Shown here piece by piece: positions 22,052 through 44,657 of a DNA stretch of 64,000 nt; the stretch's first letter is position 1; every line of letters begins with the position of its first letter. Below the pieces are notes generated by a model. That model was not told the DNA's origin. It saw only the letters and a list, made by a program, of their open reading frames with translations, and did no database searches. The stretch is from Bdellovibrio sp. BCCA (GTDB lineage: Bacteria > Bdellovibrionota > Bdellovibrionia > Bdellovibrionales > Bdellovibrionaceae). The translations under genes were made by a program, and so were the position numbers. The stretch lies in the NCBI RefSeq assembly GCF_037996825.1, contig NZ_JBBNAC010000001.1, positions 3,534,001 through 3,598,000 on the forward strand. The letters run 5' to 3'.

Positions 22052-22397
22052 TGGTGGAGGCGGCGGGAATTGAACCCGCGTCCGCAAGTGATCCGCGATA
22101 AGGCGCTACATACTTAGTCAGTGTTTTAGTTTGTTCAGCCAGCTTCCACTAACAAAATCAGACTGAACACTCCCCCAGTAAATTTAAGCGAGTCTGCTGG
22201 AGAAAACCCAACTCACCGAGGTCCCTAAATGACGATCAATCCAAGTGCGGAACCACCACAAGGTTGATCGTGCTGCTTAATTAAGCTGCAAGTGCGTAAT
22301 CGTTGCCAATTACAAAATGGACGTTTTTAACGAGGTCCTCATCCGCCCCGGTATGCTCCTTATGTTTCAGCACCCACGTCGAAGCCAGTACGCCCCC
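22052..22397 (-). ncRNA. ssrA: Transfer-messenger RNA (tmRNA)
   Basis: The 346-base gene is read on the minus strand from GGGGGCG at 22397 to the encoded CCA at 22052-22054. The acceptor stem pairs GGGGGCG with CGCCTCC, and a T-loop (GGTTCAATTCC) lies near the 3' end. The tag frame occupies about 22281-22307 and ends N-D-Y-A-L-A-A before TAA; the resume codon is probably GGC, giving the tag GNDYALAA. tmRNA with SmpB rescues stalled ribosomes and tags products for proteolysis. Confidence 0.95.
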
Positions 22398-42323: not shown

Positions 42324-42507
42324 AGAAAAACTCCTTATGACCGCTCTATGGTAGCACCTCTCCCCAACAAGAAAAGCCCAAGCCCCATTTACTGTTTCTA
42401 ACTAATGCACCGTAGACGTAAAAAATCCCCTGGCACCTTCCCTAACGCACCATCGCCAGAAAAAAGAAGCAGGCACCTTTTTAGGTTTGGGAATCCGAGA
42501 GCTTCTT
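42324..42507. other. Non-coding stretch with repeated GGCACCTT motifs
   Basis: This 184-base part of the gene-free region to the SRP RNA holds two GGCACCTT copies (about 42434 and 42472) and no supportable gene. It leads into the inverted-repeat element at 42508. Confidence 0.4.
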
Positions 42508-42645
42508 CCATAGAGGTGATTTCAAGTATTTACCTCGGATGAGCGGCCTCTGCGGGGCCTGGATGGCCCTCGCCGAAGGCGAAGCAGCGAGGGCTGGAGG
42601 CCCGTGCCGATCAGCAGAGGTAAATACTTGAAATTACCTCTATGG
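42508..42645. repeat. 138-bp inverted-repeat element, candidate structured RNA
   Basis: The outer arms (42508-42536 and 42617-42645) are 29 bases and pair at 28 positions with one G-T wobble. The inner 80 bases are GC-rich with nested hairpins: GGGCCT (42555-42560) with AGGCCC (42598-42603), and GCCCTCGC (42566-42573) with GCGAGGGC (42587-42594). CCTCTGC (42547-42553) can also pair with GCAGAGG (42614-42620). AT-rich outer arms around a GC-rich core differ from neighbouring DNA. No ORF in it is convincing. Confidence 0.75.
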
Positions 42646-42693
42646 CACGATGAGTTATCGAATGAAATCCCAGACCCCATGAGATACACCTGC

Positions 42694-42797
42694 GCCTGGC
42701 CGGGTCCCATACAATAGCACCCTTGACGAACTCCGCTAGGTCCGGAAGGAAGCAACGGTACTCGAGAGTCTATGTGATATGGGGTGCTCGGCCGCTT
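42694..42797 (+). ncRNA. ffs: Signal recognition particle RNA (4.5S)
   Basis: The RNA contains the conserved GGTCCGGAAGGAAGCA apical loop (42739-42754). The ends GGCCGGGTCCCAT and ATGGGGTGCTCGGCC pair to a long stem, and TTTTTTT follows at about 42796. SRP RNA binds Ffh and targets inner-membrane proteins. Its exact 5' end is not certain. Confidence 0.88.
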
Positions 42798-42839
42798 TTT
42801 TTGCGCTAGAATGGCGTGAATAAGTTCGAGGGGTGTATT

Positions 42840-44657
42840 TTGTCTTATCAGGTGATTGCACGCAAATGGCGTCCACAATCTTTCACTGACGTTGTCGGGC
42901 AAAATCATATTACCCAAACTCTTTCCAATGCCCTTAATAATCAACGTCTTCCACATGCTTTGCTTTTCACAGGTCCTCGCGGAACTGGAAAAACTTCGTC
43001 GGCGCGTATCTTAGCGAAAGCTTTGCGTTGCCCGAATGCGAAGGATTTCATTCCTTGCAACGAGTGTTCTTCGTGCCAGGAAATTGCAGCAGGTTCCAGC
43101 GTTGATGTGATCGAGATCGATGGTGCTTCGAACAACGGTGTCGATGCCATTCGTGAACTTCGCGACACTGTGGCTTTCATGCCTTCCAGTGGAAAATACA
43201 AAATCTATATCATCGACGAAGTTCACATGCTTTCTACAAGTGCCTTCAATGCTTTGTTGAAAACTTTGGAAGAGCCACCTCCCCATGTGATTTTCATTAT
43301 GGCGACGACAGAAGTTCACAAGATTCCTCAAACGATCTTGTCTCGCTGTCAGCGTTTTGATTTTAGAAGAATTCCCACTCGTCAAATCACAGAGAGATTA
43401 AAACTCATCTGTGATCGTGAGGGCGTGCAAGCTGAAGAGGAAGCTCTTTGGGTGATCGCTCGTCAGGGTGATGGTTCTATGCGCGACTCACAAAGTTTGC
43501 TGGATCAAGTGATCACATTTGCAAACGGACCTTTGAGTCGCAGCAATGTTGTAGAAATTCTGGGGCTCACGGATCGGGCTCTTCTTTTTGAAACTTTGAA
43601 TGGCCTCATTGATCGCAACTCTCAAGCCATCATGAAAGTGATTGAGAAAATTGCGTCCGCTGGTTTTGAGCCACATTTGTTCTCTCAAGATTTGCTTGAG
43701 ATGATCCGTAACTTGCTCTTGGTAAAAGTTTCTGAAGCGCAGGCCGTGCAGATTTTAGAAATGCCGGATTCTGAACTTCAGGCTTTGACTGACATGTCTC
43801 AACGTCTTTCTGAAGAAGACATTCATTTGCTCTTCGACATGGCTCTTAAGGGCGGTGCTGATATTCCTCGTGCTCAAGATCCGCGTATTGTTTTAGAGGT
43901 CACACTTCTCCGAATGGCTTCTGCGCCGAAGTTGGTGGACCTTAAAACTCTATTGCAAAATGGAGCTTCCACCTCTCACAGCGCAGGTGGGGCCCGGCCC
44001 TACACACCGCCGGTAGCTCCCGCCGTTCCGGGACATGATCGACTGCACGAATCGCAAAAAGTGATGGATGGTCCGAAAGGACTTGAGGCCATGAAGGCCG
44101 CTTTGGAAAAAGCGAAGCCCTCTTTGAATTCAGTAAACTCAAAATCTGCGAGTCCTGCTCCTGCGACGGCGAAAACGGCGTCTGCACCAGCAGCGGCACC
44201 AGCTCCGAGTGCACCAGTGACTCCGAAAGTGGCTACAGGCGCAACTCCGACGGAAAAGTGGGTTCATTTCGTGGAACTTCTTCGCCAAGATGACGCTCTT
44301 TTCGCGGCGAAGGTCGAAAATTTACTTTTTGTAAAAGAAGAGGGAAAGCTTGTCAGCCTTGGCGTTCCGGCTAAATTGGCCTTCTTAAAAGAGCAAATGG
44401 CTGATGCTCAAGTGCGAAAAAAACTGCAAGGATTTATTGATTCGTACTGGGGTGCTGGGTATTCTTTTGAGGTATTAATGAGCCGCGATCAGGTTGGAGA
44501 ATCGGCCCAAGCCATGCAGCAGAAAAAAGTGCAAATGGCCGAGGAAGAAATCCGCAATAAGATCGCCGAAAACCCTATGGTGAAAGCGGCCCAAGATGTT
44601 TTCAAAGGGCATATCAAATCCATAGTGGAAACTAAGCGCGACAGCGCAGGGAGATAG
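42840..44657 (+). CDS. dnaX: DNA polymerase III gamma/tau subunit
   Basis: This protein of about 605 residues is the clamp-loader gamma/tau subunit. It has SYQVIARKWRPQSFTDVVGQ at the start, Walker A GPRGTGKTS, the zinc-finger Cys set (CP-x8-C-x2-C-x2-C), DEVHML and an SRC motif. Residues about 370-470 are an Ala/Pro-rich linker, followed by a tau-like C-terminal domain. The start TTG at 42840 is preferred, since GAGGGG precedes it by six bases and it matches the family N-terminus; GTG at 42816 is unlikely. It heads the ybaB-recR-mglA run. Confidence 0.95.
   Translation: MSYQVIARKWRPQSFTDVVGQNHITQTLSNALNNQRLPHALLFTGPRGTGKTSSARILAKALRCPNAKDFIPCNECSSCQEIAAGSSVDVIEIDGASNNGVDAIRELRDTVAFMPSSGKYKIYIIDEVHMLSTSAFNALLKTLEEPPPHVIFIMATTEVHKIPQTILSRCQRFDFRRIPTRQITERLKLICDREGVQAEEEALWVIARQGDGSMRDSQSLLDQVITFANGPLSRSNVVEILGLTDRALLFETLNGLIDRNSQAIMKVIEKIASAGFEPHLFSQDLLEMIRNLLLVKVSEAQAVQILEMPDSELQALTDMSQRLSEEDIHLLFDMALKGGADIPRAQDPRIVLEVTLLRMASAPKLVDLKTLLQNGASTSHSAGGARPYTPPVAPAVPGHDRLHESQKVMDGPKGLEAMKAALEKAKPSLNSVNSKSASPAPATAKTASAPAAAPAPSAPVTPKVATGATPTEKWVHFVELLRQDDALFAAKVENLLFVKEEGKLVSLGVPAKLAFLKEQMADAQVRKKLQGFIDSYWGAGYSFEVLMSRDQVGESAQAMQQKKVQMAEEEIRNKIAENPMVKAAQDVFKGHIKSIVETKRDSAGR

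Follow-up and report, generated by a model that had tools for sequence, protein, structure and literature searches.

The window considered here is a stretch of 64,000 nucleotides from Bdellovibrio sp. BCCA (contig NZ_JBBNAC010000001.1 of RefSeq assembly GCF_037996825.1, positions 3,534,001 to 3,598,000 of the forward strand), and positions given without a genome name refer to it. It contains the gene ffs of the small SRP RNA on the plus strand (Rfam RF00169, 42698–42796) and, just upstream on the same strand, a 138-base element (42508–42645) whose 3′ end lies 53 bases from the Rfam boundary of ffs. The arms of the element, 42508–42536 and 42617–42645, pair over 29 bp with 28 Watson–Crick pairs and one G·U and enclose a GC-rich core. 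Both this architecture and the position next to ffs had been recognized correctly in a preliminary description of the locus, which also stated that the element holds no open frame. Strictly, a minus-strand ORF of 144 aa (42522–42956) crosses it, but this ORF also spans ffs and is surely spurious. Between the element and ffs lies a block, GAGTTATCGAATGAAA / GAGTTATCGAATGNAA (42651–42666, plus strand), that is kept at the ffs locus in many species of the genus; it is specific to this locus, stands outside the dispersed element described below, and is perhaps part of the transcription control of ffs. The 14-mer GCAGGCACCTTTTT (42469–42482), which occurs once in the window, is located just upstream of the element, and CAGGCAC is also found beside element copies in the distant relative G117. 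Elsewhere in the window, the tmRNA gene occupies 22052–22397 on the minus strand and encodes the tag peptide GNDYALAA.

The element consists of a long outer stem, P1, and a core that is formed by stem P2 and two nested three-way junctions, one joining P3 with P4 and P5 and the other joining P2 with P3 and P6. Going from 5′ to 3′, the consensus reads P1 arm, GNA, P2, CU, P3, P4, P5, P3′, YGA, P6, GU, P2′, GNA, and P1 arm. Beside ffs, all parts lie on the plus strand. The 29-nt 5′ arm of P1 (42508–42536), the sequence of which is private to this locus, is followed by GGA (42537–42539), which the copy alignment identifies as the 5′ half of a 3 × 3 internal loop of the consensus GNA/GNA. The 5′ strand of P2, TGAGCGGC (42540–42547), and the 5′ strand of P3, CTGC (42550–42553), lead to the P4 hairpin GGGGCC-UGGAU-GGCCCU (42554–42570; loop 42560–42564) and the P5 hairpin CGCC-GAA-GGCG (42571–42581). 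The 3′ strand of P3, GCAG (42584–42587), then closes the inner junction, and it is followed by the P6 hairpin GGGC-UGGAG-GCCC (42591–42603; loop 42595–42599), the 3′ strand of P2, GCCGATCA (42606–42613), the 3′ half of the internal loop, GCA (42614–42616), and the 3′ arm of P1 (42617–42645). P2, P3, and P5 covary between copies, P4 and P6 are defined by covariation together with a survey of their GGA-containing loops, and in both P1 arms it is the pairing, not the sequence, that is kept. The 3 × 3 internal loop is the usual state; in some copies, these bases pair instead. Nested and alternative pairings had been noted before, and the pairing of CCTCTGC with GCAGAGG (42547–42553 with 42614–42620) does exist. 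However, comparing the copies supports a predicted inner fold that differs from this pairing and also from the minimum-energy fold of the single sequence.

On the ffs strand, the 138 bases fold with −87.6 kcal/mol (z −10.1), whereas shuffled versions reach −46.0 ± 4.1 kcal/mol; for the reverse strand, z is −11.3, and no shuffle is equally stable. When the 156-base region was compared by BLAST with 24 Bdellovibrio genomes, the core was matched in 21 of them, often repeatedly. The arms, for which a search in other Bdellovibrio genomes had been proposed, remained unmatched. Compared side by side, almost all copies have related cores, each enclosed in a long palindrome that is nearly perfect and unrelated in sequence to the others. 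Two covariance models were built from them, R1 and then the broader R2, the latter from a model-fitted alignment, so that its pair counts favor the structure. With these models, 12 copies are found in this genome, 12 in B. bacteriovorus HD100, and between 1 and 35 per species in 23 of 24 Bdellovibrio species; the possibility of a single copy without relatives, raised earlier, does not apply. The site beside ffs carries the element in most of the genus, HD100 included, and is one among many sites. At this site, the copy L015 of genome G010 is a decayed member in which only one side of the palindrome is left.

Across the phylum, the covariance model detects the element in at least 54 of 369 genomes of Bdellovibrionota, which belong to 27 of the 182 genera. 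These counts are lower bounds, since 13 candidates per genome were scored, and the genomes of the phylum in which nothing matched act as an informal negative control. A scan of 84,980 prokaryote species with the core pattern gave 33 matches, only three of which, all from Bdellovibrio, combine arms with a strong model score; the remaining ones were rejected as chance matches. Viral contigs contain no copies, and phage and plasmid collections contain none or two weak fragments. Rfam has no match for the element at the gathering score, and a search at gathering and permissive thresholds returned only ffs, the tmRNA, and chance matches. The literature searched does not mention an element of this kind, subscription papers and preprints lying outside the search. 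The hairpin beside ffs belongs to a family of structured elements, not described before, that is restricted to Bdellovibrio and its relatives. That this family exists and has a strand-specific structure can be stated with high confidence.

The core fold is supported by covariation, as the preliminary description had suggested checking. When 12 type-A cores were aligned independently with MAFFT, 97.5% of the cells were paired and 10 pairs showed double changes, while none of 500 shuffles reached a pairing as high. In the model alignment of 72 copies, double changes are seen in 23 of 23 pairs, a figure that is inflated because this alignment was fitted to the structure; herein the covariation score is 0.50 compared with 0.13 after shuffling and at most 0.05, a tenth of the score or less, when the pairing partners are slid by one to three columns. 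The loops of P4 and P6 are mostly NGGAN, with the variants A(U/C)GGAN, AGGA, ACGAN, and GUGAN. All 72 aligned copies carry GGA in P4 and/or P6, 48 of them in both loops, and the other 24 have a non-GGA variant in one of the two; about a fifth of the P4 loops read ACGAN or GUGAN. Folding of single sequences presents GGA loops in 91 of 105 cores on the strand that reads toward ffs versus 3 of 105 on the other.

P1 measures approximately 25 to 40 bp across the family and is almost perfectly paired, and its sequence is free. Over 104 copies, a 32-nt stretch of the 5′ arm was compared with reverse-complemented 3′ arms; the identity is 85% within a copy and 28% between copies, the latter being equal to the random value of 28%. 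Arms of different copies are 30% identical to each other (random, 28%), and terminal inverted repeats are hence not shared. A role of the arms as guides finds no match either, as a second occurrence of the arms in their own genome is absent at E ≤ 0.1. At the ffs locus, the arms of orthologues have drifted to 40 to 80% identity or beyond alignment, and each remains paired. The orthologues L091 and L145, with about 90% flank identity, have an identical core and compensated arm changes, a block of about ten bases being altered on both sides; in the orthologues L073 and L127, the elements are nearly invariant and the flanks diverge. Isolated mismatches in the arms are asymmetric, with G·A 54 versus U·C 1, G·U 41 versus A·C 11, and G·G 12 versus C·C 2. 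Therefore, what counts is how the strand reading toward ffs folds. The asymmetry fits RNA and would fit single-stranded DNA as well. G·U accounts for about 2% of the arm pairs, which is low for an RNA.

The very high degree of pairing and the scarcity of wobble intermediates would agree with mutational bias alone, that is, the correction of quasi-palindromes in an element without a function for the host. Such correction cannot account for the conserved loops with GA, for the residues at the junctions, for mismatches that depend on the strand, or for a core that covaries at dozens of loci, and as a complete account it is very improbable.

The same arms can also be read as part of a nonautonomous mobile DNA that acts as folded single-stranded DNA, similar to REP/REPIN sequences, the ends of IS200/IS605, or attC sites. 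Herein, the strand would be recognized by a single-strand nuclease or recombinase, copies would multiply inside a genome, and templated copying would keep the arms complementary. Up to 35 dispersed intergenic copies, the almost perfect arms with little G·U, and the joint change of an arm block on both sides in an orthologous pair agree with this, and single-stranded DNA would fit the strand-specific folding, too. Moreover, genes resembling Y1 (HUH) transposases are present in 21 of 24 genomes of the genus, with 1 to 12 per genome. However, these genes lie far from the copies (the nearest at 2.1 kb, typically 12–120 kb), their number does not follow the copy number significantly (rho 0.33, p 0.11), and they are absent from species with 20, 7, and 10 copies. 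The copies show no bias for a replication strand (46:62, p 0.15), the arms are not shared terminal repeats, and loci are common to species at about 90% identity.

Single sites speak on the gain and loss of copies. Five copies of genome G016 that had not been listed for the related genome G014 were inspected individually. At L076 and L084, the missing copies look like deletions that left parts of the outer arms rather than clean empty sites, which stands against mobile DNA. At L085 and L086, the copies are present in G014 after all, in enlarged form, and the site L078 lies within a stretch enlarged by about 3 kb. A sixth site, L080, holds a pair of elements in one species, and one copy was found in the other. 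No target-site duplication was seen in the flanks of copies. Taken together, mobile DNA is a possible but unlikely explanation of the family.

REP/REPIN sequences, which are associated with RAYT (Y1) transposases, are likewise dispersed intergenic palindromes with strand-specific folding, and Y1-type genes exist in the genus. However, they are 20 to 40 bp long with a constant GTAG or CGTC tag, whereas the element has about 140 nt, no such tag, and private arms; an association with RAYT genes is also not supported, as Y1 genes neither neighbor the copies nor track their number. With MITEs, the element shares the short, noncoding format, inverted arms, and several copies per genome, but here the middle is conserved instead of the ends. 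Every locus has arms of its own, which gives no support to a classical MITE. Of the two possibilities raised in the preliminary description, structured RNA and miniature mobile element, the former is the better supported. Integron attC sites, too, differ between strands and keep their structure while the sequence of the stem is free. In attC, the outer boxes are conserved and the inside varies, whereas the element is conserved inside and varies outside, and cassette arrays were not seen, the copies being dispersed between unrelated genes. In the RNase III processing stems of pre-rRNA, a long clamp helix of free sequence likewise surrounds a structured RNA; these stems enclose rRNA, whereas the clamp of the element, which may also be processed, encloses a core of 70 to 80 nt.

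A second module is nested in some copies. It consists of CAAAAATAGC-AGGAT-GCTATTTTTG followed by a GGGC-AGGA-GCCC hairpin and is seated in the P4 or P6 region of four copies, three in G014 (among them the orthologue of L078) and one in G011. It also stands alone elsewhere, including in HD100, G016, and this genome. The form AAAAATAGC-AGGAT-GCTATTTTT is found at L227, L229, L230, and L235 and in the own genome at C1:1176235, C1:672441, and C1:2575595. A 23-mer of the module is identical between several species, and in the nested copy L229 the AT-rich hairpin is inverted and its loop reads ATCCT. Because hairpins with AGGA(U) loops behave as modules, the GGA loop is the likeliest unit to be recognized.

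All copies are intergenic, and their most frequent setting is a convergent junction (34 of 89). Over all copies, the median distance from the 3′ arm to the stop codon of a convergent downstream neighbor is 22 nt, and that from the 5′ side to the end of an upstream gene is 107 nt. These distances are approximate, as gene ends were taken from simple ORF calling. In convergent gene pairs, the upstream side of the element is much roomier than the downstream side, an asymmetry that one would expect of a short, separately transcribed unit that has a promoter of its own. A σ70-like promoter is not enriched upstream of the copies. By eye, in the sequences inspected, no U run follows the 3′ arm on the plus strand or adjoins the 5′ arm for the reverse strand, and the element does not resemble an intrinsic terminator. 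Inverted pairs of elements about 300 to 500 bp apart occur at L119, L120, L121, L080, L124, L125, and L126, several of them at convergent junctions, as in HD100 at 1191864 (minus) and 1192188 (plus). HD100 and a relative suggest that paired copies exchange with each other.

The proximity to convergent stop codons raises a different explanation, namely a cis-acting 3′-end element that abuts the convergent stop codon and shapes the 3′ end, the stability, or the antisense readthrough of the neighboring or upstream messenger. The prevalence of convergent junctions and the short distance to the downstream gene end fit this, and it would explain simply why the structure is maintained in individual copies. 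APsRNA6 of HD100 (1338787–1339441, plus strand; PMC3627812) can be counted in its favor as well. It runs antisense through the copy at 1339159–1339236 (minus strand) and contains a 92-aa open frame with a membrane-like sequence and then the element (L224:1155–1433). Because of this open frame, APsRNA6 may not be an sRNA but a messenger, probably with the element in its 3′ part. It shows antisense, not sense, transcription of one copy, and it continues about 160 nt beyond the element, which therefore does not end it. Against a cis-acting role, the strand whose fold is conserved is not that of the convergent neighbor's messenger but the opposite one, the other contexts (−−, ++, and −+) account for 54 of 89, the ffs site has no convergent gene, and the neighboring genes belong to no common family. 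A cis-acting 3′-end element is a possible but rather unlikely explanation. Sense transcripts of the 12 HD100 copies are absent (0 of 12) from the published list of HD100 attack-phase sRNAs, which covers attack-phase-specific RNAs only (PMC3627812); this counts against an action as RNA. A c-di-GMP riboswitch is located in HD100 at 1073868–1073951 (minus strand), within the published merRNA (PMC3627812).

Judged by the features tested, the element is not a MITE, a REP/REPIN sequence, an attC site, or an intrinsic terminator; it is partly like the Csr RNAs. The family element is probably RNA, and we hold it reasonably likely that the family acts as such. CsrA is a dimeric protein that recognizes GGA in hairpin loops, and csrA is present once per genome in all 25 genomes searched. 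The repeat of CsrB is CAGGA(U/A/C)G (PMC7652899), and the form CAGGA(U/A)G of many P6 loops is letter-for-letter equal to it. The single gene in every genome, the dimeric state, the recognition of GGA, and the match of P6 loops to the CsrB repeat make CsrA the best candidate for a partner. We give a probability of roughly 45% to the overall reading that the family is a multicopy structured noncoding RNA that presents paired GGA hairpins to an RNA-binding protein, with CsrA as the best candidate. The fold and the exposed GGA loops are observed; the steps that follow are proposed. Transcription would proceed from the strand reading toward ffs, and the RNA would fold on the P1 clamp helix; RNase III or another nuclease of double-stranded RNA could shorten this helix whatever its sequence. 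The P4 and P6 hairpins would together offer two binding sites to a dimeric protein that recognizes GGA in RNA, and the 12 to 35 copies in many genomes could constitute a CsrA-binding pool, similar to Csr/Rsm sponges, that is distributed over many loci.

The Csr/Rsm sponge RNAs (CsrB, CsrC, and RsmX/Y/Z) are alike in their GGA hairpin loops, in the repeat shared by CsrB and P6, and in the presence of CsrA in the genome. They carry many sites on one RNA, whereas the element exists as 1 to 35 small dispersed copies with usually two GGA loops each, more being found only where the second module is nested. The element also differs from them by mostly having pentaloops on strong stems, by its long perfect clamp helix, and by having no match in Rfam. 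The SELEX consensus of CsrA, RUACARGGAUGU, places A-N-GGA-N in a hexaloop on a weak stem, and stable stems are reported to be disadvantageous for binding (PMC7652899). Compared with this, some P6 loops are A(U/C)GGAN, but most loops are NGGAN pentaloops without the consensus A, and their stems are GC-rich. In this genome, csrA adjoins fliW downstream of flgK/flgL-like genes (L243:2316–3270), so that a protein antagonist of CsrA is already present; FliW antagonizes CsrA in other bacteria without sRNAs (PMC7829508). In one species, G022, CsrA is present and the element was not detected. Because most loops are pentaloops on strong stems, 24 of 72 copies have a non-GGA variant in one of the two loops, and fliW is located beside csrA, CsrA as the partner of the family is tentative and less likely than not. 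It is doubtful, but conceivable, that private palindromes kept complementary by templated copying and a conserved GGA tip in a genome-wide pool that binds a global regulator together represent a new class of dispersed element in predatory bacteria.

The element beside ffs leads to a large, undescribed structured family in nearly every Bdellovibrio species. Since the model strain HD100 is among its carriers, transcription and binding are directly testable. Whatever its function, near-perfect stems of free sequence at dozens of loci provide a case for separating structural selection from templated correction. If the family indeed works as an RNA of the Csr type spread over many loci, Bdellovibrio, whose life cycle switches sharply between two expression programs, would have a further, new level of post-transcriptional control.
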